Shown in pieces: positions 44,425 to 57,795 of a DNA stretch of 64,000 nt (position 1 is the first letter of the stretch; each line of letters begins with the position of its first letter). The position numbers were made by a program, and so were the translations under genes. Source of the DNA: Gemmatimonadota bacterium (lineage in GTDB: Bacteria > Gemmatimonadota > Gemmatimonadetes > Gemmatimonadales > Gemmatimonadaceae); assembly GCA_016182795.1 (NCBI GenBank), contig JACPFW010000015.1, positions 124,001-188,000 of the forward strand, written 5' to 3'. The notes beneath the pieces were generated by a model. That model was not told the origin of the DNA and ran no database searches. It saw only the letters and a program-made list of their open reading frames with translations.

Positions 44425-45369
44425 TTATCTGCTCTTCCTCACACACCACGCCTGCGGCACCCGCAGCGACTCGTGCCACTTGCCGTTGCCGCGCGCGAGC
44501 ACCACCAGATCGTTGGTGCCGGCGTAGCGCCACGATTCCACGAAGATCTCGTCCGTGCCGTCCCCGGTGAGATCGAGATGGTCGAGCACCCGCTGGAATT
44601 CCACGGTGCGTGCCTCTCCAGCCTCGAGGTGCTTGTACGTGACCTGATAGCCCTTGCCGTTGAGGTCGTCGCCGAGGATCAGGAAATGCGTCGTGTGCCC
44701 CGCCCCCGGTCCGGTGTCGCCGGCGTTGGCATCCACCTGGTTGGCCACCAGCGTGGCCGGCGCCCCGCCGGCCATATGAATGGCGCGCGCGCTGAACGAC
44801 GCGGTGTCGATGTCGGCGGTGTCGAGCCCTTCGGTGCGGAGCGCGAGAAGGGCGACGTCCCGTACGGCGGCATTGAGGTCGCGTGGCTCCGCTCCCTTGC
44901 CGTTGCCCGTGTGACCCGGGACGCTGAGCGAAAGGAACTCGAAGGCCGGATCGAGCGCCACCTGCGTCTTGAGCTTGACCGCCGCCATCGGGCGCACATC
45001 GCGGCAGCCCGGAAGCGAATAGAGCGGCTCGCTGTCCGGCTCCCACATGCGGCGTGTGACCGTCACTACGCCGGCTGGCCGGCCGTCACGATAGACCGTG
45101 TACTCGGTTCCCGCCTGGAAATAGAGCGAGTCGAGCCGACGCCAGTCGGCATCCGGAAGCACGATCTCCTTTACCACGCCATCGACGACTGCCGCGATCG
45201 GCACGAGGCGCGTGGAGTCGAGGGTGCCGAACGCCTGGAAGACGAGCGGCGGCTTGGTCGCCACATCGAATGACGGCGCCGGCGGCAGCTCGTCCGCCGA
45301 CTCCTGTTTTGCCTTGTCGCATCCCGCCGCGAGGACTAGGATGCTCAGCATGAGTGTGGAACGGCGCAT
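44425..45369 (-). CDS. Hypothetical lipoprotein
   Basis: Predicted product of 314 residues from the ATG at 45369. It has the signal and lipobox MRRSTLMLSILVLAAGCDK (Cys17). The mature part is beta-rich, with TEYTVYRDGRPAGVVTVTRRMW, LILGDDLNGKGYQVTYKHLEAGEARTV and LDLTGDGTDEIFVESWRYAGTND; the last recalls FG-GAP/VCBS calcium-binding propeller blades, but only one blade is visible. Function unknown. Its start codon overlaps the 5' end of the divergently oriented NurA-like gene, an unusual layout. Confidence 0.75.
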   Translation of the reverse strand: MRRSTLMLSILVLAAGCDKAKQESADELPPAPSFDVATKPPLVFQAFGTLDSTRLVPIAAVVDGVVKEIVLPDADWRRLDSLYFQAGTEYTVYRDGRPAGVVTVTRRMWEPDSEPLYSLPGCRDVRPMAAVKLKTQVALDPAFEFLSLSVPGHTGNGKGAEPRDLNAAVRDVALLALRTEGLDTADIDTASFSARAIHMAGGAPATLVANQVDANAGDTGPGAGHTTHFLILGDDLNGKGYQVTYKHLEAGEARTVEFQRVLDHLDLTGDGTDEIFVESWRYAGTNDLVVLARGNGKWHESLRVPQAWCVRKSR

Positions 45370-46351
45370 GGGGCCAACGTACCCGCCGACTGGGGGGGCC
45401 GCAAGCGTTCGCGACGCCTTGCGGGCGGTGCGCCACGCGGGCGCGGCGATGGCCGCGCTCGAACCTGCCCTCGAACTGCGCCCGGTCGCTCCCGAGCCGC
45501 CTCGCCTGCAGCGCGCCGCGCCGCTCGAAGGTGACGCCGTGCGCGCGCGGGCCGTGGACGGCGAGCCGGTGGTGGGCATCGCCGCCTTTCTCGACGGCAT
45601 TCAGGAGAGCCGGGTCGTTGCGCACTGGCCGGGCGGCGTGCCGCTGGTGCATGGCACCGTGGCGGCGACCGTGCGCCTGCGTCGTGAACGGACGCTCGTG
45701 GCGTGGCGCGCCGACGGAACCCACGTCGAACGGGCGCTGTTCGTGCCGCGCGCGGCGGTGGGCGACGCGGCGTGGGCGGCCATCGCGTCGGCCTACGACG
45801 TGCGCGACACCCTCGACGACGGCGAGCGCGGACCGTGGCACCCTCTGGACCTCGCGGCCCGCGCGCTCAGCGCGGTGCAGCGCCGCCGCGAGACGGTTGA
45901 AACCACCTGCGCCGAACGGTGGGTTGCCGACGGCTCGGCGCCGCTGTTCGTCGACGGCGGCATCGCCGCCGCCGGCGCCGCCGCGCAGTCCCCGCTGGCC
46001 ATTGGCGTCGTGAAATCGCATCGCACGCTGTACGTCGACGGCGACGCGCTTCCCATCGTGCTTGGCCTGCGCGTCGGCGAGCGCACCACCGCGTTCACCG
46101 TTGCGTCGCCGCGCCGCGCGGCTGTCGCAAGCTGGTACCTGCGCTGGCGTGAGCCGGCGGCGCACGACGCACTGTGGGGGCTCGTTCGCGTGGAGATCGC
46201 GCTCAACGGCGCCACCGCCGAACGCGCCGACCTCGTGTCGCGCTGGCTGCTCGCCGAACGCGCGCCGGTGTCGCTTCCCGATCCGCGCTGGGGCGCGATG
46301 GCGTACGGCGTTAGGTTGACGGAAGAGTATCTGCGCGCCATCACGCGATAA
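45341..46351 (+). CDS. nurA: NurA-like nuclease
   Basis: Predicted product of 336 residues from the ATG at 45341, behind GAGGA; ATGs at 45350 and 45368 are alternatives. FLDGIQES holds an Asp (motif I-like position), and VPLVHGTVAATVRL, then IGVVKSHRTLYVDG and LWGLVRVEIALNGATAERADLV follow the order of NurA domains, in which acidic residues bind two metals. The assignment rests on this pattern plus its place immediately upstream of a HerA-like ATPase and Mre11/Rad50. NurA is a 5'-3' nuclease that resects DNA ends with HerA in archaea. Similarity is moderate, so the call is cautious. Confidence 0.6.
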   Translation: MLSMSVERRMGPTYPPTGGAASVRDALRAVRHAGAAMAALEPALELRPVAPEPPRLQRAAPLEGDAVRARAVDGEPVVGIAAFLDGIQESRVVAHWPGGVPLVHGTVAATVRLRRERTLVAWRADGTHVERALFVPRAAVGDAAWAAIASAYDVRDTLDDGERGPWHPLDLAARALSAVQRRRETVETTCAERWVADGSAPLFVDGGIAAAGAAAQSPLAIGVVKSHRTLYVDGDALPIVLGLRVGERTTAFTVASPRRAAVASWYLRWREPAAHDALWGLVRVEIALNGATAERADLVSRWLLAERAPVSLPDPRWGAMAYGVRLTEEYLRAITR

Positions 46352-46373
46352 CCGACATTCTGAACCTTCGCCG

Positions 46374-48320
46374 ATGCCCATAGGCCGAGTCGTCGCCACC
46401 GAGCGCAAGCCGAACACGCCGCACGAGTTCCATTTCTGGACGGCGCTCGATGCCGCCGTGGGCATCGGTACCATCGTGCGCGTCGAGGGGCCGCCCACCG
46501 GCGACGGGCGTCTGGTCACGGTCTATGGCGTGGTCGTCGAGGGCTTCTCGTATACCGATCTCCAGACGCCGTTGCACGACGTGCTCGGCGCGGACGGCGA
46601 TCCATCGGCGGCCCTTCGCGCCCCGACCGACCGCACCGAGATCCGGCTGTACACCGCGCACGCCCTGCGCCACGTGCCCGATGAGCCGCTGCAGCCGGTG
46701 CCGATGGGCACCGTGCATCTGGCGACCGACGAGGACATCGCCGTCGCGCTCCGGATGGACGGCTATCTGCGCGACGGACAGCGCACGGCCATTCCCATCG
46801 GCGTGTATCGCAGCGGCACGATGCAGAGCCCCGTGTACCTCGATGCCGACTTCCTACTCGGCCCGGAGGCCGCGCACCTCAACATTTCGGGCGTCTCGGG
46901 GTTGGCCACCAAGACGAGCGCCGTGGAGTGGCTGCTCAGCTCGATCTTTGCGCATTTCCCGGCCCAGAAGGGGAGCGTGGCCGCCGTCTGCTTCAACGTA
47001 AAGGGGCCGGACCTCTGCTTCCTCGACCAGCCATCGGAGAAGCTCGACGACGCCGACCGCGCCCTGTACGCCGCCGCGGGCGTGCCCGCCGAGCCGTTCC
47101 GTAATGTGGAGTACTACGCGCCGTGGACGGCGCGCGGCCATGCGCTGGCGACGCTGCGCTCCAACGAGGCGCTCGCCGACAACGTGCATCCGCTCACCTG
47201 GGGGCTGCAGGAGGTACTGCAGTACGCCGAGGTGCTGCTCAACAAGGATGACGTGGACGCCAAGGCGGATGCGCTCATCGACTTCATTCGTGAACGCGTC
47301 GTGAATCAGGAGTTCACGGATCCCATTCTGCCGCGCGTGCACACCGTGCGGTCGTTCGCCGATCTCGGCGAGTGGTTCCGCGACGTGCTGCGCGGCATGG
47401 AAGGGCGCGACGCCGAGAGCTGGCGCACGCACCACGTGGCGACCATCCGCAAGGTGCGCAATCGGCTGACGAACATCTCCACCCGCTGCCGCGGGCTGGT
47501 CACCGACGACGGCACGTCGCACGACCTGCCGTTCGGCGCGTTCCGCGACCGCGCCGTCTACGTGATTGACGTGGCGTCATCCGAAGAGGACGCGCAGGAC
47601 CTCATCTTCGCCCGCGTCGTCTCGCAGCTGCGTGAGCAGCTCGAACGTCGCACGCTGGGCGTCGACCACGTGATCGTCTTTGTGGACGAACTCAACAAGT
47701 ACGCGCCGTCCGACGGTCCCGATACGTATGTGCGCCAGATGCTGCTCGACATCGCGGAGCGGGGGCGCTACCTGGGGCTCGTGCTGTTTGCCGCGCAGCA
47801 GTTCCGGTCGCAGGTGCACCGGCGCGTCGTGGGCAATTGCGGCACCGCACTGTTCGGCCGCATGGACATGGACGAGTTGGCGACGCCCGGCTACGCGACG
47901 CTGGCGCCGGCGACGCGCATCAAGCTGGCGACACTCGATAAGGGCCAACTGATGGTGCGGCACCCGCACTTCGCGCAGCCCGTCTTCGTGCGCTTCCCCC
48001 GTCCCGCGGTGCTCGGCGGCCGCGAGGGTATGGAGCGCTATCCCGCCCAGCCGGAGCAGTCGCTTGAGGCGGCGGTCACGCGCACGCTGCGGAAGCTTGA
48101 TCCGTCGATCACGCTCGAGTGGGTGAAGCAGGCCATTGTGGCGGCACCCGAGGACGAGGTGCTGCGCGCGCGGAACCGGACGTTGCAGGCGCGCCCCGAG
48201 GACGTGAAGGCGTACTTCCGGGCGCAGTTCCGCGGCCGCGCGGTTGCCGAGCCGGTCGCGGCCCGGTCGGGGCACCTACCGCTCGCCGGCGCGGAGAGCA
48301 GCGACCCGTACGGGTTCTAG
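46374..48320 (+). CDS. herA: HerA-like ATPase/translocase with variant P-loop
   Basis: Predicted product of 648 residues. An N-terminal HAS-barrel-like beta domain (about residues 1-125) precedes a FtsK/HerA RecA-like ATPase core. The P-loop position reads ISGVSGLATKTSAVEWLL (K180, T181), one residue longer than GxxxxGK[ST] and without the Gly before Lys. Walker B is VIVFVDELNKYAP (about 432-441). FAAQQFRSQVHRRVVGNCGTALFGRMD contains the conserved sensor and arginine region of HerA proteins. It would drive hexameric DNA translocation for NurA. It starts 22 bp after nurA and lies 73 bp before the Mre11 gene. Confidence 0.8.
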   Translation: MPIGRVVATERKPNTPHEFHFWTALDAAVGIGTIVRVEGPPTGDGRLVTVYGVVVEGFSYTDLQTPLHDVLGADGDPSAALRAPTDRTEIRLYTAHALRHVPDEPLQPVPMGTVHLATDEDIAVALRMDGYLRDGQRTAIPIGVYRSGTMQSPVYLDADFLLGPEAAHLNISGVSGLATKTSAVEWLLSSIFAHFPAQKGSVAAVCFNVKGPDLCFLDQPSEKLDDADRALYAAAGVPAEPFRNVEYYAPWTARGHALATLRSNEALADNVHPLTWGLQEVLQYAEVLLNKDDVDAKADALIDFIRERVVNQEFTDPILPRVHTVRSFADLGEWFRDVLRGMEGRDAESWRTHHVATIRKVRNRLTNISTRCRGLVTDDGTSHDLPFGAFRDRAVYVIDVASSEEDAQDLIFARVVSQLREQLERRTLGVDHVIVFVDELNKYAPSDGPDTYVRQMLLDIAERGRYLGLVLFAAQQFRSQVHRRVVGNCGTALFGRMDMDELATPGYATLAPATRIKLATLDKGQLMVRHPHFAQPVFVRFPRPAVLGGREGMERYPAQPEQSLEAAVTRTLRKLDPSITLEWVKQAIVAAPEDEVLRARNRTLQARPEDVKAYFRAQFRGRAVAEPVAARSGHLPLAGAESSDPYGF

Positions 48321-48393
48321 ACAGCACCGTTCTCCCTGCCTGTCGGATACCCTGCGCCGGACCGTACATTTCGGCTCTCCTCGTCCGCGCCCC

Positions 48394-49596
48394 GTGCGAC
48401 TCGTCCACCTCTCCGACCTCCACCTCGGCTTCCGCCAGTTCCAGCGCGTCACGCCCGCGGGCAAGAACCAGCGCGAGGCGGACGTCGCGGCGTCGTTCAC
48501 GCGCGCGATCGACCGCGTTGTCGAACTGGCGCCGGACATCGTGCTCATCGGCGGCGATGTCTTTCATACGGTGCGCCCCACCAACCCCGCGATCCTGCAC
48601 GCGTTCCAGCAGTTCTCGCGGCTCCGCGCGGCGCTGCCGCAGGCAATCATCGTCATCGTCGCCGGCAATCACGATATGCCGCGATCGTCGGAGACCACCT
48701 GCATACTGCGGCTGTTCGAGCCGCTCGGCTTCCACATCGCCGACGTTGCGCCGCGCCGGTTCACCTTCCCCGAGCACGATCTCGCGATTCTCGCCGTCCC
48801 CGACCTGCCGCCCGGCAGCGTGGACCTTTCGCCCGACCTCACGTTCACCCACAACGTGCTGCTCCTGCACGGCGAGGTAGAAGGCGCCCTGCCCGAGGGG
48901 GCGCGCGAGGATGAGCGCGCGTCGATGCCGATCCCGGCAAGCGCGGTCTCGCACGAGCGGTGGGACTATGTGGCGCTTGGTCACTACCACGTCTACCGCA
49001 GGGTGGGGCCCAACGCCTACTACTGCGGTTCGCTCGACTACACGAGCACCAACAGTTGGGGCGAGTACGCTGAAGAGCGGGCGGCGAAACTCCCCGGCAA
49101 GGGGATGATCGAGCGCGATCTGGCGACCGGCAAGCAGACGTTCCACCCGCTCCCCGTGACGCGCAAGATCATCGACCTGCCGGCCATCAACGGTCGGGGA
49201 CTCTCGGCCACGGATCTTGACGCGGCTGTCGCCGCCGCCGTCGAGAAGTGTCCGGACGGCGGCATCGACGGCAAGGTGGTGCGCCTCGTCGTGCGCGATG
49301 TGCCGCGCCACGTGGTGCGTGAACTGAACCACCAGCGGCTGCGGGAGTTCCAGCGGCGGGCGCTGCACTTCGTGCTCGACGGCCGGCGCCCGAGCGTCGT
49401 GCGCACGTCGGTCGCCGAGAGCGGCGCGCCGGGACGCCGGCCGTCGCTGGCCGACACCCTGCGCGAAGCGCTGCGCAGCCGCGTGCTGACCAGCGACATC
49501 GACCGCGACCGGTTGGTGGAATTGGGCGAGCACTATCTGCGCGACGCCGAGCAGGACATGGCGGCGCGCGGCGTCGACGAGACGGAGCCCGCGTGA
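48394..49596 (+). CDS. sbcD: Mre11/SbcD-type DNA exonuclease
   Basis: Predicted product of 400 residues from the GTG at 48394. All phosphodiesterase motifs are visible: SDLHLG (D8, H10), GGDVFH (53-58), GNHDMP (91-96), LLHGEVEG, and GHYHVYR (about 196). With the Rad50 homologue it processes double-strand ends and hairpins. It overlaps the Rad50 gene as GTGA. Only the general SbcD/Mre11 identity is sure; its association with NurA- and HerA-like genes favours the archaeal-type module over the classic bacterial sbcCD pair. Confidence 0.92.
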   Translation: MRLVHLSDLHLGFRQFQRVTPAGKNQREADVAASFTRAIDRVVELAPDIVLIGGDVFHTVRPTNPAILHAFQQFSRLRAALPQAIIVIVAGNHDMPRSSETTCILRLFEPLGFHIADVAPRRFTFPEHDLAILAVPDLPPGSVDLSPDLTFTHNVLLLHGEVEGALPEGAREDERASMPIPASAVSHERWDYVALGHYHVYRRVGPNAYYCGSLDYTSTNSWGEYAEERAAKLPGKGMIERDLATGKQTFHPLPVTRKIIDLPAINGRGLSATDLDAAVAAAVEKCPDGGIDGKVVRLVVRDVPRHVVRELNHQRLREFQRRALHFVLDGRRPSVVRTSVAESGAPGRRPSLADTLREALRSRVLTSDIDRDRLVELGEHYLRDAEQDMAARGVDETEPA

Positions 49597-52055
49597 GACT
49601 CTCGCGCCTGCGTCTCGTCAACTTCCGCCAGCATGCGGACAACACGCTGCTGTTCGACAGCGGGCTCACGGGCATCATTGGCCCGAACGGCTGCGGCAAG
49701 ACGACGATTCTCGAGGCGATCAAGTGGGCGCTGTACGGCGGTGACGCGACGCGCGGCACCGTCGACTCCATCCGCTTCGCGCGCGCCAGCGCCCGCTCGC
49801 CCGTGCGCATCGAGCTCGACTTTGACCTCGGCGGCCACCGGTATCATCTGGTGCGCGCGCTGACGACGGCTGATCTCTTTGTCGACGGCGGCGAACGCCC
49901 CATTGCCACGGGCGCCTCGGCGGTGACCGACGTGATCCGCCGCAAGCTCGGAATGTCGCTCGACGAGTTCGACAACACGTACTTCACGGCCCAGAAGCAG
50001 CTCGCCGTGATGGCCACGCTCACGGCGGCGGCGCGCGCGCAGTTCCTGTCGCGTGTGCTCGGCTACGAGAAACTGCGCGCCGCGCAGGATCTGTGCGATG
50101 AACGGCGCAAGGCGCTGCGCAACGAGAGCAACGGCATGCGCGCCGGCATGCCCGATCCAGACCTGCTCGCGCGCCAGCTCGTGGACGCCGAGGCTCGCTT
50201 GCGCGACGCGCAGGCGCGCGCGGCGGCGGCCGCCGTGGCCCAGGCGCGGGCGCAGCAGGAGCTGGGCGCGCTGCAGCCGCGGTGGACCGATGCCCAGCGG
50301 GCCCGCGAAGAACTGCAGGGGCTCGACGCCGAGCGGCGCGTCCTCGACGCCGAGGTGGCCGGGCTGGTGCGTACGGTGGAGCGCGTCGAGGGCGAACTGC
50401 GCCACGTGGCCGACGCGCGCGCCCAGCTCGTGCCGCTGGCGGAAGCGCTGGTGCCGTTCCACGAGGTGGGCGAGGAGCTGAACCGCCAGCGCGAACTCGC
50501 CGTCTCCGACGGCCGGCGGCAGGCGCTGCAGGAATCGGCGCACGAACTGGGGACCGAGCTGCAGCACCTGCGCGAGGGACGTTCGCGGATCGAGACGGCG
50601 CCGGCCGTCGAGGAGCAGCTCACCGAAGAGATGGAACAGAAGCGGCGCCGGCTCGAGGAACTGCAGGGCCGCCTCGAACTGCGGCGCACGGAGTGGGTGC
50701 GCGACCGGCAGGAGGCCGAGACGCGCCGCAACGCGCTGCGCACGCAGTATCAGGAGCTGCGCGAACAGAAGGACAAGCTCAAGACGGCCGGTGAGGAGGG
50801 GAAGTGCCCCACGTGCAGCCGTCCGCTCGGCGACCATTATCACAGCGTCATGGACTTCCTCGAGACGCAGCTCGAGGCGGTCAGCGCCGACGGACTGTAT
50901 TTCCGCCAGCGACTCGAGCAGCTCGAGGGAATGCCCGAGGACATCGCCGCCCTCGATGAGGAGCGGCGACAGGCGATGCAGGAGGTCAGCACGCTGGAGC
51001 GCAAGCTGGCGCGCACGCAGGTGGCGGTCGGTCAGCTCGAGCAGCTCGCCCGCGAACTCGCGCAGAAGGAGCAGCGGTACGCCGCGCTCGCCGGCGAGCT
51101 CGCGGCGCTCCCCGGCGGCTACGAGCGGGCGCGGCATCAGGCGCTGGAGGCGCAGTTCGAACAGTTGGCGGCGTTGAGCACCCAGGCCAACCGGCTCACC
51201 ACGCAGGTGGAGCGTGAGCCGATGCTGCGGCGTGAACTCGACTCCGCGCAGCGCGCCATCGCTGCCGCCGACAGCAAGCGCGCCCAGATTCTCTCACGAC
51301 TCGGCACTATCGCGCACTCCGAGGAGGAGTACGCCGCGCTCGGCGAGCAGCACGCCCAGGCCATGGGGACCGTACAGTCGGCGGCCCTGTCGGTGCTCAA
51401 CGCCGAATCCGAAGCGCGTCAGGCGATGGCCGACCGCGACCGTGTAGTCGCGGCGCAGCAGGAGCTCGAGACGCGTCGCGAGCGTCTGGAGCGGATCGAG
51501 GCCGACAAGCGGCTGCACGACGAGCTCTACCGCGCCTACTCCGATTTGCGCACCGACCTCAACTATCAGATGCGCCCCGAGATTTCCGAGCTGGCGAGCG
51601 GATTCCTCTCGGCGCTGACCGACGCGCGGTACAGCGAGCTCGACCTCGACGAGAAGTACCGCATCTCGATCCTTGAGGACGGGGTGCCGCTGCCGGTGAT
51701 CTCCGGCGGCGAGGAGGACCTCGCCAACCTGGTGCTGCGCCTCGCCATTTCGCAGATGATCGCCGAGCGCAGCGGCCAGCCGTTCTCGCTGCTGATCCTC
51801 GACGAAGTATTCGGCTCGCTCGACGAGGTGCGGCGCCAGAACGTCATTGGCCTGCTGCGCGCGTTGCGCGACCGCTTTGATCAGGTCATCGTCATCACGC
51901 ACATCGATGACGTGCGCGACGGGCTCGATCAGGTCTTCCTCATCACCAACGACGAGAAGACTGGCGCGTCGCGCGTCACGCGCGGTGATGCCGACCTCCC
52001 TGCGGGTTCCGAGGGGCTGCTGATCGCCGCCGGCGCGTCGGAGTCGGGCGAGTGA
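49593..52055 (+). CDS. sbcC: Rad50/SbcC-type SMC ATPase
   Basis: Predicted product of 820 residues, shorter than E. coli SbcC (about 1050) and near the size of archaeal Rad50. Walker A is GPNGCGKT (30-37). Long coiled coils flank the zinc hook CPTC (C405, C408), followed by SRPLGDHYH. The C-terminal signature is ISGGEEDLANLVLRLAIS, and Walker B is LLILDEVFGSLDE (about 730). Hook dimerisation and ATP-driven clamping at DNA ends are the known roles. GTG start inside the sbcD stop codon. Confidence 0.92.
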   Translation: MRLSRLRLVNFRQHADNTLLFDSGLTGIIGPNGCGKTTILEAIKWALYGGDATRGTVDSIRFARASARSPVRIELDFDLGGHRYHLVRALTTADLFVDGGERPIATGASAVTDVIRRKLGMSLDEFDNTYFTAQKQLAVMATLTAAARAQFLSRVLGYEKLRAAQDLCDERRKALRNESNGMRAGMPDPDLLARQLVDAEARLRDAQARAAAAAVAQARAQQELGALQPRWTDAQRAREELQGLDAERRVLDAEVAGLVRTVERVEGELRHVADARAQLVPLAEALVPFHEVGEELNRQRELAVSDGRRQALQESAHELGTELQHLREGRSRIETAPAVEEQLTEEMEQKRRRLEELQGRLELRRTEWVRDRQEAETRRNALRTQYQELREQKDKLKTAGEEGKCPTCSRPLGDHYHSVMDFLETQLEAVSADGLYFRQRLEQLEGMPEDIAALDEERRQAMQEVSTLERKLARTQVAVGQLEQLARELAQKEQRYAALAGELAALPGGYERARHQALEAQFEQLAALSTQANRLTTQVEREPMLRRELDSAQRAIAAADSKRAQILSRLGTIAHSEEEYAALGEQHAQAMGTVQSAALSVLNAESEARQAMADRDRVVAAQQELETRRERLERIEADKRLHDELYRAYSDLRTDLNYQMRPEISELASGFLSALTDARYSELDLDEKYRISILEDGVPLPVISGGEEDLANLVLRLAISQMIAERSGQPFSLLILDEVFGSLDEVRRQNVIGLLRALRDRFDQVIVITHIDDVRDGLDQVFLITNDEKTGASRVTRGDADLPAGSEGLLIAAGASESGE

Positions 52056-53011
52056 GCGCGGCGAAGCCCGGGCCGCGCGGGCTGCGGGCGCGGCCGCTCG
52101 ATGTCTCCGACATCGGGCGGCTGAATCAGCTCTTCTCGGAGGCATTCTCCGACCGCTATCGGCGCGACGGGCTGACCGGTGTGCGCGTGCCGCCGCTCAA
52201 TCCTGTGATCTGGCGCTACGCGATCCAGGATGCCGGTGACGGCGCGACGTGCTGGGTCGATGTCGACGACCGGTTGGTCGCGTTCAATGTGGTGCACCAG
52301 TCAGGCATCGAAGGGTGGATGGGGCCGCTCGCCGTGAAAGCCGAGTGGCAGGGCGGGGGGCTGGGCAAGACGGTCGTCAGCCATGGTATCGATGTGCTGC
52401 GCGCGCGCGGCTGTTCGGTTATCGGGCTCGAGACCATGCCGCGCACGATGGACAACATTGGGTTCTACTCGCGGCTTGGATTCATCCCGACGCGGTTGAC
52501 CACGACCTTCAGCTTTGAGGCGCGTTCCGGGCGTTGCGTTGTGTTGTCGCAGCGGAGCCGAACCGACGCCGACGCCGCAATGCGCGACTGCGCGCGGCTG
52601 GTGAACGACCTTCAGCCCGGTGTCGACTTCACGCGCGAGGTGGAGCTGACGCGCGCGCTGGGAATTGGCGACACCGTGCTGCTGTATGGCCCAGACGCGC
52701 TCGTCGGGTTCGCGCTCTGCCACGATGCCGCGCTCGTGGAAGGGCGGCCGCGCGAAGAGACGCGCGTGCTCAAGCTTGCCGTCCGCGACGTGGCGCAGCT
52801 GCCGGCCTTGCTCGCGGCCGTGGGTGCATACGCGCGCGACCGTGGCACGGCGCGTGTGGCGGTGCGTCTGCAAGGCGATTACCCCGACGCGTATCAGGCG
52901 CTGGTGTCACTGGGCGCGCGCGTGCGGTGGACGGACTTGCGCATGACGCTGGCCGGCTGTGGCGAGGCCATCCCCACGCGCGGCCTCGTCTGCTCGAACT
53001 GGGAGATCTGA
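52052..53011 (+). CDS. GNAT-family acetyltransferase at the end of the DNA-repair operon
   Basis: Predicted product of 319 residues; the GTG start overlaps the sbcC stop (GTGA). A first GNAT domain (about 10-165) has GPLAVKAEWQGGGLGKTVVSHGI, containing the acetyl-CoA loop (Q-x-x-G-x-G), then IGFYSRLGFIPT. The second half (about 175-319) is a degenerate repeat of the fold, with EETRVLKLAVRDVAQLPALLAAVGAYARDRG. The tight coupling with nurA-herA-mre11-rad50 suggests that it works with them, for example by acetylating a repair factor, but the acceptor is unknown. Confidence 0.8.
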   Translation: MSAAKPGPRGLRARPLDVSDIGRLNQLFSEAFSDRYRRDGLTGVRVPPLNPVIWRYAIQDAGDGATCWVDVDDRLVAFNVVHQSGIEGWMGPLAVKAEWQGGGLGKTVVSHGIDVLRARGCSVIGLETMPRTMDNIGFYSRLGFIPTRLTTTFSFEARSGRCVVLSQRSRTDADAAMRDCARLVNDLQPGVDFTREVELTRALGIGDTVLLYGPDALVGFALCHDAALVEGRPREETRVLKLAVRDVAQLPALLAAVGAYARDRGTARVAVRLQGDYPDAYQALVSLGARVRWTDLRMTLAGCGEAIPTRGLVCSNWEI

Positions 53012-53437: not shown

Positions 53438-53465
53438 CCCCGTTCACTTCGGTGAGCGGGGCGTT
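53438..53465 (-). terminator. UUCG-loop hairpin at the 3' end of the BTAD-TolB regulator
   Basis: CGCCCCGTTCAC and GTGAGCGGGGCG form a 12-bp stem (one G-U pair) around a TTCG tetraloop. The regulator's stop codon (53444-53446) lies inside the stem, so the gene ends within its own terminator. Confidence 0.55.
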
Positions 53466-56400
53466 GTGCGTGGGGGCGGGAGGTGCAGCACAGTTGGCGA
53501 CCGGAAGCGGCTCCAGTCGATGTCCGAGGGCACGCCATCGATGACGCGCAGCGGGCCAAGCAGCAGCTTCGTTCGCCAGGTGCTGCCATAGGTCAACGGC
53601 GTCAGCACACTGCCTCTTCCAATCGACGCGCCTGAGAGCCCGATGGGCACGCCGTTGATCGCCGCCCCGCAGCGTCCGTCTGGGAGAATCTGGAGGCGCA
53701 CCGAGTATGGCGTGCCCGATACGAGCCATCGCTGCGTCGCCGCGTCGAGACGGACTATCGCGTCACCGATCTGGAGTCCTTGACGACCCTCGACTCCCTC
53801 CGTGTACGGATAGATCAGCAGGCAACTCTGGAGTCCCTTCACCTTGCCTGTAAACGGCAAGTATCCGGTTCGATGATCCCATCGAGCGAGCATGTGCTCG
53901 GGCTCGGCGACACGCAACTCGGTCGCCAGCAATTGCCACTGAAGTTCGTTGACCGGCGTGCGCACCGTGGCGTCGAGTGCGAGACCGCGGTGAAACGCGA
54001 AGGAACGCCGAAGATAGGCGCCGCTAAAGTACGAGCCGTCGCCCTCGTTGGAGAATGCCGGTCCGCGTTGCTTATCAGCCACGATGCGAGGCGTCGGATC
54101 GCCAAACACGCGCCAGCGCGCGAGGTCAGCCCATCGTTCGTCCAGCACCACCTGCTCTCGGCGCGGCAGCACGACGAGGACATGCGACGCCGTGCGCCAT
54201 CCCCCCGTGGTGGCTTGTACGGTGAATCGTCCCGGTATCCGCGCAATCAGAACATTCAGACTGTCAGTCTGAATCGCCGCGTCGCGCGAGTGCCAGTGCG
54301 CATTGGGCGCGGTGGAGCGCCGGCCGTCACTCCATGCGGCCAGTACCTCAAGGTGGTGCGGCACGCCGACGTAGAGAGTGTCCACCGAACGGGCGAACAC
54401 CAACGAGTCGACGAACGGTCGTGGATGGCCCGTCGCCCCCCACGTCAATGTTCGAAAGACACGTCCGCTCGACGGCACCTCGAGTGTCCGCGAACGCTCC
54501 ATGCGCTGCAGCGGCGCGACGCGGACCAATCCGTCGCCGGCGGCGCTTTCCTGCCACGCTACCCAGTCACCGAAGGGTGAGATTGTCGCCGAGCCAAGCG
54601 CGGTTGCCAGCGTGTCGCGACGCCAGGTCGAGTCCGGACTGAATGCGACGAGTCTGGACGTCCTGTCGAAGGCACCAATCGTGACCATCAGCGTGGACGC
54701 TGACGACCACCCGAGAATGTCCGGCGCTTCAGTGCGCGACAGGTTCGTGCAGCGTTCGCGCTCGCCATCGATGTCAATTACGCAGAGCTGTCTCGGCCGG
54801 CCGTCCAGCGGCTGTCGCAAAAACGCGAGCCGCGACCCGTCGGGACTCCACTGCGGAGCAGTCTCTCGATCCAGGTTCCGAGTCACACGGCGCACGAGTC
54901 CGGACGAGAGGTCAAGCACGGCGATCGCGTGATGCCGCTCGGCACTCCAGCGCGACGACGCAAACGTCACCGCACGCATGTCGGGCGACCAACTGCCGGG
55001 TACATCATCGCCGGTCGAATGTGTGAGGCGTTGGACCCCGCCATCTTCGGCCACGGCGGTTACCTCGCTTGCCCCGGAGTCGTTGAACACGCGCTCCTCA
55101 AGCATCGTCCCATTGCGCGGGTCGACGTTCGCTCCGCTATGACTGCTCAGCCACCGTGTGGAGTCGAAATACGGCCGCCCGCGCCGCAGCTCGAGCGGGT
55201 GGGCGGGATCCCAATCGGCGCCGCGAATGTTCAAGCGCCATTCGGTCGAATGATTCGCGGCATCGCGTCCGAACACGCGGAGCACGGCGTCGGGGGGCTC
55301 GGGTGAGTGGTTGATCCGCCACGCCGTCGCGGTCCCCATCAGCACGAGGCCAACCACCGAGAACGTGAGGCGCCGGCGAAACGGCCGCAGGCGAATCCGT
55401 GATGGCAGCGCGCGCGCCACGGCACGCGCGAGATCCCGATGCTCGGAGCTCGGACCCAGCCACGTGGCGAGCGTCGTCGCGACGGTCCTGTTTCGCGGCA
55501 GCGCCGTGCGCTGGAGAGCGGGGGCGAGGGCCGAGGCGAGTTCGAATGGCGAGACGACGGACGCCAAGAGTCGCGCGCCGCGCGCCAGCCATCGCGCGTC
55601 AGAATCGCGAACGCATGCGAAGCCGAGTTCGCGGGTCCACTCCGTCCGATCATCCAGAGTGATCAGGCCCAGCACGGCATCGGCGATGAGATCGTGTGCG
55701 AGCGCGTAGCGGTCGCCGTCGCGCACGATCAAGGCATGGCGTTCTGCCTCCACGAGCGCTTCGTGTATCGCTGGAGCCTCGGTGCCGTCGGCCGCCGCGG
55801 CCAACAGACGCGCGGGCAGCGCACGCCCGGCCAGGGCGAGCGACGCCACGAACCGAAGCGCCAGCGGAGAGAGCGCTCCCAGGCTCCGCGACATCGCATT
55901 GCCGTCCGTTAGATGCCGGATCAACGCCGGCGGGTCGTTGCAGGTCCATTCATCCGCGCCAGCGCGCAGCAGGCCCGCTTGCAGCACGTCGCGCAGTGCG
56001 AGCAGCACGAACAACGGAATGCCGCGTGACGCCGCGTGGAGCGCACCGATGACCTCACCGCGCCAGGCGACATCAGGGAGCGGTCGAATGCTTCCGACCA
56101 GTGCGTCGACCTGCGCCTCGGTTAGTGGCGCAAGGACGAGCGCGACCGTTCTGTCCGCCGGCAGCGCGATTCGCGCGCCCGGTCGTTCGGCGACGACGAC
56201 GAGCACCCGGGCGACGGACAACCGCGCGAAGGCAGCCTGCAGGGCATCGACCGACGCATCATCGGCCCAGTGAAGGTCGTCAAGCAACAGCGCGGTTGGC
56301 TTCTCGTCGGCAATGCACAGGAGCAACTCGTGCAACGCCCGAGAACGACGCAGGAGCAAGTCGAGTCCGCTGGTGTCGCTCGGCGCGTTGAATACACTGG

Positions 56401-57517
56401 CGAGTGCGCTGTTGAGGCCAATCAGCACGCCGGCCGTCCCCGGCGTCACGGCCGCCGCTCCGCTGAGGGCGGCGAGCTTGGTGACGAGCGCGCTGATCAG
56501 GGCGAACGGCACGTCACGCTCGCCGGGCAAGGCGCGAATGCGTACGGTCCGGACGCGCAGTGACCGCAGCCGCTGTTCGATGTCCGCGAGCAACCGGCTC
56601 TTGCCGATGCCTGCGCCCGCGGTGATGCCCACGAATCCCGTGGTCGCCTGCCGCGCCGCCTCCCACGCCGCGATAATGGCGGCGAACTCGGCTTCACGAC
56701 CAATGAGATCCGGTCTCAACTCGTCGGTGGCCGCCACGGGCGGTACGCCGGTCGCGGCGCGCTCACGGCGGGCCTGCGCAATCAACGCGACGGTCGCCGG
56801 CTCCGGGTCGAGTTCCTCAGCCGATAGCCACTGCGCCAGGACCGCCGTCTCGGTGAGCGCCTGACCGAACTCGCCGGCGGCCAGCAGCGCCTCGATGAGC
56901 GCGCGACGACTGCGCTGGCCGTGCGGCTCGATCTGGACCAGACTGCGTGCGGCATTGGCGGCGTCCCTAGGCCGACCCGAATCGAGCAGCCGGCGCACGT
57001 GCACATCCAGTGCGTTGGCCACGTCGCTTCGCACGCGATGTCGTACGCTGTCCGCCCAGAGCTCGAACTCATGGCAGCCCGGCGCCGCAAAATCGGCGAA
57101 AAAGTCGCCGGTGAACAGCGCAATCGCGTCGGCCGGCCGATTCTCCTGCAGCGCCACCGTGAGCGCCGTCAGATCGCTCGGCAGCGGTCGGGTCAGCCGG
57201 CAGCGCGACATCGTGGCATCGAGCAGTTCGTCAAGCCCGGCGTTCCTGATCTGCAGCAGCACGTTGCGCAGTGAGTGGGCCGGATCGCGCACGCAATTGC
57301 CGCCCCACAGCAAGTCCATCAGGAACTCGCGGCTGGCCTCGTGCTGCGCGATGACGCTGAGGTACGCAATCAGGGCGAGCGGCTTGCCCTTGCCGAGCAC
57401 GCGGACTTCGTCGCCCGTGGGTGTGCGGCGCGCGAGGTAGGGTTCGCCGAGCAGGCGCAGCGTCAGATGGCCGTCATCGGCGGTGCTGATCGCGTCGGCG
57501 AGACGCGTACTCGTCAT
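53444..57517 (-). CDS. Giant BTAD-AAA ATPase-transmembrane-TolB-like regulator
   Basis: Predicted product of 1357 residues from the ATG at 57517. Domains in order: winged-helix/BTAD (about 18-255, LTLRLLGEPYLARR, later VHVRRLLDSGRPRDAA), a STAND/AAA-type ATPase (Walker A GITAGAGIGKSRLL near 300, Walker B ALLLDDLHWADD near 411) with helical repeats, one membrane helix (about 715-735, FSVVGLVLMGTATAW), then TolB/WD40-like repeats (GSWSPDMRAVTFAS, APQWSPDGSRLAFLR) and a C-terminal LamG-like beta-sandwich. If the helix is real, DNA-binding and sensing parts lie on opposite sides of the inner membrane, as in CadC-type one-component regulators. Confidence 0.85.
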   Translation of the reverse strand: MTSTRLADAISTADDGHLTLRLLGEPYLARRTPTGDEVRVLGKGKPLALIAYLSVIAQHEASREFLMDLLWGGNCVRDPAHSLRNVLLQIRNAGLDELLDATMSRCRLTRPLPSDLTALTVALQENRPADAIALFTGDFFADFAAPGCHEFELWADSVRHRVRSDVANALDVHVRRLLDSGRPRDAANAARSLVQIEPHGQRSRRALIEALLAAGEFGQALTETAVLAQWLSAEELDPEPATVALIAQARRERAATGVPPVAATDELRPDLIGREAEFAAIIAAWEAARQATTGFVGITAGAGIGKSRLLADIEQRLRSLRVRTVRIRALPGERDVPFALISALVTKLAALSGAAAVTPGTAGVLIGLNSALASVFNAPSDTSGLDLLLRRSRALHELLLCIADEKPTALLLDDLHWADDASVDALQAAFARLSVARVLVVVAERPGARIALPADRTVALVLAPLTEAQVDALVGSIRPLPDVAWRGEVIGALHAASRGIPLFVLLALRDVLQAGLLRAGADEWTCNDPPALIRHLTDGNAMSRSLGALSPLALRFVASLALAGRALPARLLAAAADGTEAPAIHEALVEAERHALIVRDGDRYALAHDLIADAVLGLITLDDRTEWTRELGFACVRDSDARWLARGARLLASVVSPFELASALAPALQRTALPRNRTVATTLATWLGPSSEHRDLARAVARALPSRIRLRPFRRRLTFSVVGLVLMGTATAWRINHSPEPPDAVLRVFGRDAANHSTEWRLNIRGADWDPAHPLELRRGRPYFDSTRWLSSHSGANVDPRNGTMLEERVFNDSGASEVTAVAEDGGVQRLTHSTGDDVPGSWSPDMRAVTFASSRWSAERHHAIAVLDLSSGLVRRVTRNLDRETAPQWSPDGSRLAFLRQPLDGRPRQLCVIDIDGERERCTNLSRTEAPDILGWSSASTLMVTIGAFDRTSRLVAFSPDSTWRRDTLATALGSATISPFGDWVAWQESAAGDGLVRVAPLQRMERSRTLEVPSSGRVFRTLTWGATGHPRPFVDSLVFARSVDTLYVGVPHHLEVLAAWSDGRRSTAPNAHWHSRDAAIQTDSLNVLIARIPGRFTVQATTGGWRTASHVLVVLPRREQVVLDERWADLARWRVFGDPTPRIVADKQRGPAFSNEGDGSYFSGAYLRRSFAFHRGLALDATVRTPVNELQWQLLATELRVAEPEHMLARWDHRTGYLPFTGKVKGLQSCLLIYPYTEGVEGRQGLQIGDAIVRLDAATQRWLVSGTPYSVRLQILPDGRCGAAINGVPIGLSGASIGRGSVLTPLTYGSTWRTKLLLGPLRVIDGVPSDIDWSRFRSPTVLHLPPPRTTPRSPK

Positions 57518-57795
57518 CGCGTGCTGGGGTCCGCGTGACCCAATGGCCACGGAGTGCGGGCGGCGGGGTAGTGCGTGTGACGCTCCAATGAGGCTGACAG
57601 ACGTGGTTGGCGCGTTCGACGAGTCGTTCCGGCCTCTGGCTGCCGGTACGCCGCGCCTTGCGCGGCCCCTCCAGTCGCGAAGGTACACTATGTAACGAGC
57701 ACCAGCAAGCAGTCCACGCGTGCGCGCGCTCGTGGGCGGGGCGAAGGGTCTTCTGTGGTGGCGAAGGGGGCGGCTCCGGAGGTTATCTTCACTTC

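Follow-up and report, generated by a model that had tools for sequence, protein, structure and literature searches.

A detachable NurA-HerA pair beside a stable Mre11-Rad50-GNAT core in Gemmatimonadota: a probable module for processing double-strand-break ends

In a 64,000-nucleotide stretch of a Gemmatimonadota contig (JACPFW010000015.1), hereafter the window, a row of five genes was found together with the following features.

45341..46351, + strand: nurA, bacterial-type NurA, predicted nuclease, from a divergent branch that lacks the PQNL motif and tail at the C-terminus; its start lies somewhere from 45341 to about 45449
46374..48320, + strand: herA, predicted bacterial HerA-type dsDNA translocase; Walker A GVSGLATKTS, Walker B VDELNKYAP
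48394..49596, + strand: mre11/sbcD, Mre11-like nuclease; GTG start likely
49593..52055, + strand: rad50/sbcC, Rad50-like ATPase of short length, overlapping mre11 at GTGA
50805..50816, + strand: CPTC zinc hook of Rad50, read from the sequence; the weak Pfam hook match is below the cut-off
52052..53011, + strand: acetyltransferase of the GNAT family, overlapping rad50 at GTGA; the GNAT domain is N-terminal and keeps the acetyl-CoA loop

The gene calls bore out the original prediction that all five genes lie on one strand, and the predicted 4-bp GTGA overlaps are present at the Mre11/Rad50 and Rad50/GNAT joints. The five proposed identities (NurA, HerA, Mre11, Rad50, and GNAT) hold as well. The start assigned to nurA (45341) is doubtful for two reasons: it overlaps the 5' end of a lipoprotein-like gene that runs divergently, and the similarity to several relatives sets in near residue 42. 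For Mre11, the likeliest start codon is GTG 48394, 73 bp 3' of the HerA end. The genes nurA, herA, mre11, and rad50 are co-directional and adjacent, the layout of an archaeal-type resection operon. Because HerA was detected (E <= 1e-10) in 161 of 249 Gemmatimonadota genomes, we rule out chance as the source of the locus.

Since Pfam, NCBIfam, and single-sequence PDB searches returned no NurA match for the window NurA (P0001), its identity was resolved by profiles and structure only. The predicted NurA profile match of the 45341-46351 product failed with Pfam: PF09376 gave no match for P0001, L042, L063, and L141, a score below the cut-off for L164, and scores above it for L077 (family f5), L102, L103, and L096. 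It was obtained with a profile of NurAs from other phyla, which lacks records named Gemmatimonadota and gave the window NurA 64.0 bits; none of 200 shuffled copies was listed with this profile. Furthermore, a NurA family profile built from 32 sequences, the window NurA being one of them, matched Deinococcus radiodurans NurA (7f6d_H; E = 1.3e-53) and TM1739 (E = 7.7e-21). The four best PDB matches of the AF2 model (pLDDT 74.6) were all NurAs, with Foldseek E values of 3.9e-10 to 7f6d_G, 3.9e-8 to 1zup, and 2.3e-6 to 2ygk, at TM-scores of only 0.41-0.53 (query-length normalized). According to this model, the protein has a predicted RNase H-like NurA fold. D53, K201, and R309 of D. radiodurans NurA are required for cutting (excerpt of PMC9960219); they align with D85, K225, and R316 of the window NurA, which are invariant in our alignment A2, a correspondence that assumes that the PDB chain carries 20 additional residues. 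An N-terminal tryptophan matching W8 is missing. The C-terminal PQNL motif, defined in the present survey, was found in 0 of 40 NurAs of families f1, f2, and f4, in 10 of 11 of families f5 and f7, and, using a slightly looser pattern, in 57 of 60 of the named set.

The best solved relative of HerA is D. radiodurans HerA (7f6d, E = 7.9e-48), and the Walker A K/T and Walker B D/E residues are kept as in that protein (residues from an excerpt of PMC9960219). The NCBIfam model NF040937 (HerA_Thermprot) gave 14.2 bits against a cut-off of 800. On the strength of these sequence comparisons, NurA and HerA are both assigned to a divergent branch of the bacterial (Deinococcus) type. The layout thus resembles that of the archaeal operon, as the original prediction of an archaeal-type module implied, but the NurA and HerA proteins themselves, with D. 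radiodurans proteins as best solved relatives, are bacterial-type. For Mre11, the best NCBIfam model was SbcD, below its cut-off (67.8 versus 77.65 bits). The top model for Rad50 (820 amino acids) was one named Rad50 (NF003034; 213 bits, below the cut-off of 700); the SbcC model gave 86.8 bits (cut-off 478.5), and the Pfam zinc hook 16.4 bits (cut-off 24.3). The closest solved structures of Mre11 and Rad50 are archaeal, a source that we take from the entry codes. The GNAT protein matched PF00583 with 45.7 bits (cut-off 20.7), and its acetyl-CoA loop residues Q100 and G105 are invariant in 20 sequences. Our searches gave no assignable fold for its C-terminal half, and the single-sequence model was unusable (pLDDT 38.5). 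A tandem-GNAT reading of this half is unproven (hhalign E = 0.07).

The five-gene order was surveyed in 43 HerA-positive loci, picked for long contigs and spread from 125 such genomes of families f1 and f2. The order is conserved in 36 of them, including one (G029) in which NurA lies 4.8 kb from HerA. Among the loci out of order, NurA is on another contig in G244 (where GNAT is beyond the fetched stretch yet beside Rad50), lies about 16 kb away in G140, and was not found in G018, G012, and G104; GNAT lies 4.8 kb from Rad50 in G015, and Rad50-GNAT lie about 18 kb from HerA in G109 (Mre11 was outside the check there). In G135, HerA and NurA are on a different contig from Mre11-Rad50-GNAT. A NurA turned up in 90 of the 99 distinct HerA-positive genomes that were searched (G080, present in both NurA searches, was counted once); the nine misses may be too many, because first-look candidates were scored only partly in most genomes. 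The HerA-less genomes comprise 20 listed ones of the order and 68 further, unlisted ones among the 249. NurA was found in none of the 20, and GNAT adjoins Rad50 in 19. On the tree, which was built without G043 (lack of columns) and G196 (no Rad50, HerA, NurA, or GNAT match), HerA switches state nine times. In light of these three observations, the locus consists of two parts, a NurA-HerA pair that is detachable and a Mre11-Rad50-GNAT core that is stable: NurA and HerA were lost together repeatedly, while Mre11-Rad50 was retained with GNAT. The predicted conservation of gene order is therefore seen in most HerA-positive loci, but GNAT is not tied to NurA-HerA, and a fixed five-gene functional unit is rejected, since GNAT persists where the pair is absent. 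If GNAT is an accessory of anything, its retention beside Rad50 in HerA-less genomes suggests that it is one of Mre11-Rad50. The distances of HerA, NurA, Mre11, and GNAT all correlate with those of Rad50 (r = 0.56-0.66; 23 f1 loci; 0/999 permutations each), as expected under vertical inheritance.

We consider it probable that the locus is a chromosomal module of two units, NurA-HerA and Mre11-Rad50-GNAT, for processing the ends of double-strand breaks. By analogy with characterized relatives, we infer a division of labor in which Mre11-Rad50 would sense and trim the broken end first, a HerA hexamer would pump duplex DNA into a NurA dimer, and this dimer would cut the 5' strand. The coupled GNAT would most likely modify a substrate linked to Mre11-Rad50, its exact target being a guess. 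Several points speak against a resection module: the missing PQNL motif, tail, and W8 match of NurA, the 9 of 99 HerA-positive genomes without a NurA match, the failure of the link to RecBCD/AddAB in a phylogeny-aware test (see below), the score of Mre11 below the SbcD cut-off, and the C-terminal half of GNAT, foldless by search.

The role of HerA-NurA is disputed between a resection machine and DNA-shredding defense; in the excerpt of PMC12977600, a 2026 biochemical study of the archaeal proteins, resection is doubted and an antiviral role suggested. By extension, NurA-HerA would shred phage or plasmid DNA, as argued there for the archaeal pair, and would lie beside repair genes by happenstance, which we regard as unlikely. 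Its repeated loss, with the nine state changes, suits a defense gene, and NurA itself could be the defense effector of HerA. HerA together with Sir2 or DUF4297 has been reported as antiviral, and the fifth structural match of the NurA model was TdpAB, a HerA/NurA-like defense complex. PADLOC gave HerA-type matches of at most 29.8 bits for the window HerA and zero matches for NurA and GNAT; Rad50 matched LmuB (an SMC-like defense ATPase; 123.7 bits) and mad3 (102.7 bits), both lower than the 213 bits that it reached with the Rad50 model of NCBIfam (the libraries differ). A shredder accounts poorly for a pair that, in most loci examined, keeps its position next to Mre11-Rad50 within a conserved block of the chromosome, occurs together with both genes in loci of six phyla, has no recognized effector partner apart from NurA, and, unlike a mobile defense island, shows distances that track Rad50 about as closely as those of Mre11. 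The pattern of loss could instead reflect functional replacement of end-resection machines, NurA-HerA being lost where RecBCD or AddAB was gained. For f1 genomes, RecD over the cut-off (plus the fragmented G218) was found in 11 of 16 HerA-less and 11 of 71 HerA-positive ones (P = 5e-5), and RecBCD or AddAB in 13 of 16 and 22 of 71, respectively (P = 4e-4); a raw test on the tree rows agreed (12/18 versus 10/43, P = 0.003), and RecB, RecC, and RecD of one such genome (G055) all pass the NCBIfam cut-offs. Labels were assigned by hand, RecBCD by TIGR01447 over the cut-off plus the fragmented G218, and AddAB by a strong PF12705 match with a second one nearby (G088 fragments were counted in the tree-row test; the PF12705 scan covered 42 of the 54 HerA-positive f2 genomes). 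However, nine independent pairs gave no significant trend (on average 1.4 in the same direction, 0.9 opposite, 6.7 without difference), AddAB alone did not differ (2/16 versus 11/71, P = 1), both kinds of machine occur in many genomes, and 7 of the 20 HerA-less genomes had neither RecBCD nor AddAB by the searches made (G202, G028, G200, G013, G038, G043, and G186). Since the raw tests are significant and the paired phylogenetic tests are not, we keep replacement only as a rival and hold it tentatively.

As for GNAT, there is a real chance, a little short of even, that it is a passenger, an unrelated enzyme cotranscribed with rad50 by chance and kept in position by slow rearrangement of the block. 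Indeed, much of the surrounding block (from sequence, presumably an aminotransferase, an AsnC-like protein, QueD, FolE, and an SDR) is likewise conserved in f1, GNAT lies 4.8 kb away in the relative G015, and no GNAT was found near the operon in any of 80 named HerA loci. Beside the operon, GNAT was found only in this order. A passenger is harder to reconcile with the gap between rad50 and GNAT (stop to first aligned residue), which is at most 55 nt in 58 of 60 loci, including those of f2 and f3, in which the next genes downstream are different or more distant, and with the persistence of GNAT after NurA-HerA loss. It is conceivable, but improbable in our estimate, that Mre11-Rad50 and a dedicated acetyltransferase form the true repair unit of this order, in which acetylation of Rad50 or Mre11 would gate the handover of ends to the long-range resection machine at hand, NurA-HerA in most lineages, or RecBCD/AddAB where the pair was lost. 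Such gating would place a prokaryotic Mre11-Rad50 under an acetylation switch, of which a literature search by title found no example.

Bacterial HerA-NurA is discussed mainly from Deinococcus-Thermus in the excerpts of PMC9960219, PMC5448004, PMC8708640, PMC12977600, and PMC4351679. The present survey shows a bacterial order with several lineages that jointly lack NurA and HerA while Mre11-Rad50 stays. Its related natural strains with and without the pair constitute a natural experiment on NurA-HerA and on the Rad50-adjacent GNAT.

In archaea such as Sulfolobus and Pyrococcus, the four genes form an operon, herA-mre11-rad50-nurA. The window has genes for these four proteins, too, all in a row on one strand, with Mre11 and Rad50 nearest to archaeal structures, but HerA and NurA are bacterial-type, nurA comes first, and GNAT is added. 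While all four operon proteins are essential in S. islandicus (excerpt of PMC4351679), whole lineages here do without NurA-HerA. A four-gene set is not exceptional in bacteria: among 80 HerA loci fetched, mainly from Actinomycetota, 57 contain all four genes. By record title, these loci span six phyla, and cultivated actinomycetes are among them, e.g., Micromonospora and Glycomyces. In Oceanithermus profundus, the HerA gene hepA is followed downstream by sbcD and sbcC, and thus a HerA gene precedes Mre11/Rad50 homologs in a bacterium of another phylum; NurA and GNAT are not named for this species in the excerpt of PMC5448004. The closest characterized systems are the NurA-HerA pairs of D. radiodurans and Thermus, whose catalytic and Walker residues are kept here, whereas the PQNL motif and tail of NurA are not. 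Furthermore, Thermus nurA-hepA sits among metabolic genes (excerpt of PMC5448004), while NurA-HerA adjoins Mre11-Rad50 here. As in bacterial SbcCD, a Mre11/Rad50-type pair is encoded by overlapping genes and SbcD is the top NCBIfam model of Mre11; in contrast to SbcCD, both proteins score below the SbcD/SbcC cut-offs, and the short Rad50 prefers the Rad50-named model.

The original prediction rightly described five codirectional genes at 45341-53011 of the window. They are transcribed in a single direction, with a gap of 22 bp between nurA and herA and of 73 bp between herA and mre11, and a GTGA overlap is present at both the mre11/rad50 and the rad50/GNAT joints. The genome carrying them amounts to 3.13 Mb in 50 contigs.

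44425-45369, minus strand, lipoprotein-like gene (judged from its sequence), pointing away from nurA, its start overlapping the predicted NurA start
45341-46351, plus strand, nurA
46374-48320, plus strand, herA
48394-49596, plus strand, mre11
49593-52055, plus strand, rad50
52052-53011, plus strand, GNAT gene
53444-57688, minus strand, very large open reading frame (1414 aa), past the end of the operon

The NurA start position is uncertain, because the lipoprotein-like gene seems to begin inside the first 30 bases of the predicted frame. Between these two divergent genes, there is almost no intergenic space. The 53444-57688 frame, as read from its sequence, appears to encode an activator/ATPase-like domain followed by repeats.

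HerA matched D. radiodurans HerA (E 7.9e-48), and it keeps K and T of Walker A as well as D and E of Walker B (residues according to PMC9960219). The window NurA alone gave no Pfam NurA match and no PDB match, but a profile built from NurAs of other phyla found it at 64.0 bits; none of 200 shuffled copies was listed with the same profile. A 32-sequence NurA profile, which includes the window's own sequence, detected D. radiodurans NurA (1.3e-53) and Thermotoga TM1739 (7.7e-21). Searched against the PDB, the AlphaFold model (mean pLDDT 74.6, pTM 0.74) had NurA chains as its top four matches (TM-scores 0.41-0.53, by query length): one of D. radiodurans, two of TM1739 and one of Sulfolobus. TdpAB came fifth. 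Loss of D53, K201 or R309 abolishes D. radiodurans NurA activity, as stated in PMC9960219; the corresponding D85, K225 and R316 are kept in the window NurA. Its branch differs from the NurAs of f5, a family of the window's class, and f7, another family of the phylum survey, in lacking the C-terminal PQNL motif and tail (0/40 NurAs in f1/f2/f4 versus 10/11 in f5/f7).

In PDB searches with Mre11 and Rad50, structures that we take to be archaeal from their entry codes outscored E. coli-type SbcD. The best NCBIfam models were SbcD for Mre11 and one named Rad50 for Rad50, all under their cut-offs. GNAT was over the Pfam cut-off, and in its family (20 sequences) the acetyl-CoA loop has an invariant Q and an invariant G, and the C-terminal SNWEI was all but invariant.

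Among 249 genomes of the phylum, HerA was found in 161 and GNAT in 142, the latter all in f1, f2 and f3, three families of the window's order. NurA-HerA-Mre11-Rad50-GNAT occurred in this order in 36 of the 43 HerA-positive f1/f2 loci examined. However, the idea of a five-gene functional unit did not hold: GNAT was retained in 19 of the 20 listed HerA-less genomes of the order (16 f1, 1 f2, 3 f3), and NurA was absent genome-wide from all 20. NurA was present in 90 of 99 distinct HerA-positive genomes. Mre11-Rad50-GNAT surrounded GNAT in 17 of the 19 HerA-less stretches, the other two (G236 and G043) ending at a contig edge within Rad50. Neither NurA nor HerA was seen in these 19 stretches, of which those of G228, G236 and G043 stop short of the DNA upstream of Mre11/Rad50. 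Since GNAT follows Rad50 within 55 nt in 58/60 loci (exceptions G019 and G028), it is either an Mre11-Rad50-linked accessory or a passenger. In G015, outside those 60 loci, GNAT lies 4.8 kb away.

At least three genomes of f9, another family of the survey, have both HerA and NurA but at a large distance from each other (G158, G166 and G184), and therefore the pair persists without linkage. In G158 and G184, Rad50 too is at a separate chromosomal place from both, and a second, shorter match to Rad50 was found in G184. Three genomes with HerA (G012, G018 and G104; loci L067, L066 and L068) yielded no NurA beside HerA or genome-wide; either HerA occurs there without NurA or NurA is too diverged for the profile.

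On a tree of Mre11+Rad50 (61 ingroup and four outgroup rows), the HerA state changed nine times. Losses are the simplest reading, because all four outgroup rows have HerA. Within f1 (23 loci), distances correlated with those of Rad50 for HerA (r 0.65), NurA (0.56), Mre11 (0.63) and GNAT (0.66), each with 0/999 permutations. We conclude that the five genes were largely inherited together in f1.

Replacement of NurA-HerA by RecBCD or AddAB is attractive but unproven. RecD over the cut-off, plus the fragmented one of G218, was found in 11/16 HerA-less versus 11/71 HerA-positive f1 genomes (p 5e-5), and RecBCD or AddAB in 13/16 versus 22/71 (p 4e-4); in one such genome, the RecBCD operon passed all three NCBIfam cut-offs. 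AddAB alone was present in 2/16 versus 11/71. However, nine independent pairs on the tree revealed no trend, and 7 of the 20 listed HerA-less genomes had neither RecBCD nor AddAB by these searches. Work published in 2026 on the Thermococcus complex calls resection into question and proposes that the complex degrades DNA as an antiviral measure (PMC12977600). In this clade, the repeated loss of NurA-HerA would fit defence, but that the genes keep their place in the chromosome and are inherited vertically argues against it.

Relatives' loci contain two additional genes, both absent from the window.

L042:9422-10276, L063:6949-7875 and L072:7432-8319, DUF6263-like protein between HerA and Mre11
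L058:11503-12024, minus strand of the locus, conserved protein of ~170 aa upstream of nurA or herA

The DUF6263-like insert, probably exported, occupies this position in 12 loci, which all belong to f1. The L042 protein reached 22.9 bits with PF19777 (under the cut-off of 26.7), and a Pfam scan of the L063 protein gave no match. By profile comparison, the f1 insert matched those of f2 (E 8.7e-13) and f9 (E 1e-7); f2 and f9 inserts compared directly matched weakly (E 4e-4). A gene matching these inserts still precedes Mre11 in 11/19 HerA-less loci. The ~170-aa protein occurred in 26/61 loci (L058 and 25 others), and one member scanned gave DUF2283 at 17.3 bits, under the cut-off of 23.

A species-genome scan with a HerA alignment yielded at least 80 loci, an uneven sample, sorted by similarity to a HerA from f7. 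With gene calls based on Gemmatimonadota profiles, HerA, Mre11, Rad50 and NurA were on one strand in 57 of the 80 loci listed (HerA-Mre11-Rad50-NurA in 49, NurA-HerA-Mre11-Rad50 in 8). Many of the remaining 23 end at a contig edge; L105, L117 and L175 are among those that do not. By record titles, in which MAG names may be wrong, the 80 listed loci were from Actinomycetota (70), Acidobacteriota (3), Chloroflexota (2), Pseudomonadota (2), and Bacillota, Bacteroidota and Gemmatimonadota (1 each); the 57 listed four-gene loci cover the same set minus Bacillota, six phyla. GNAT at ≥25 bits was found in none of the 80. Our literature search found no paper on NurA and HerA in Gemmatimonadetes and no title describing this locus, including searches with an acetyltransferase/GNAT, actinomycete or Gemmatimonas angle. 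Homologues of NurA/HerA are mentioned for Actinobacteria, Cyanobacteria and Firmicutes in PMC8708640, and PMC5448004 describes an Oceanithermus hepA gene with sbcD and sbcC behind it.

In summary, the locus is surprising in that its four-gene layout is widespread in bacteria and that NurA and HerA are repeatedly absent together beside a stable Mre11-Rad50-GNAT core. By analogy with D. radiodurans and Sulfolobus, Mre11-Rad50 would act at the DNA end itself, and NurA-HerA would combine translocation with nuclease activity to remove the 5' strand.
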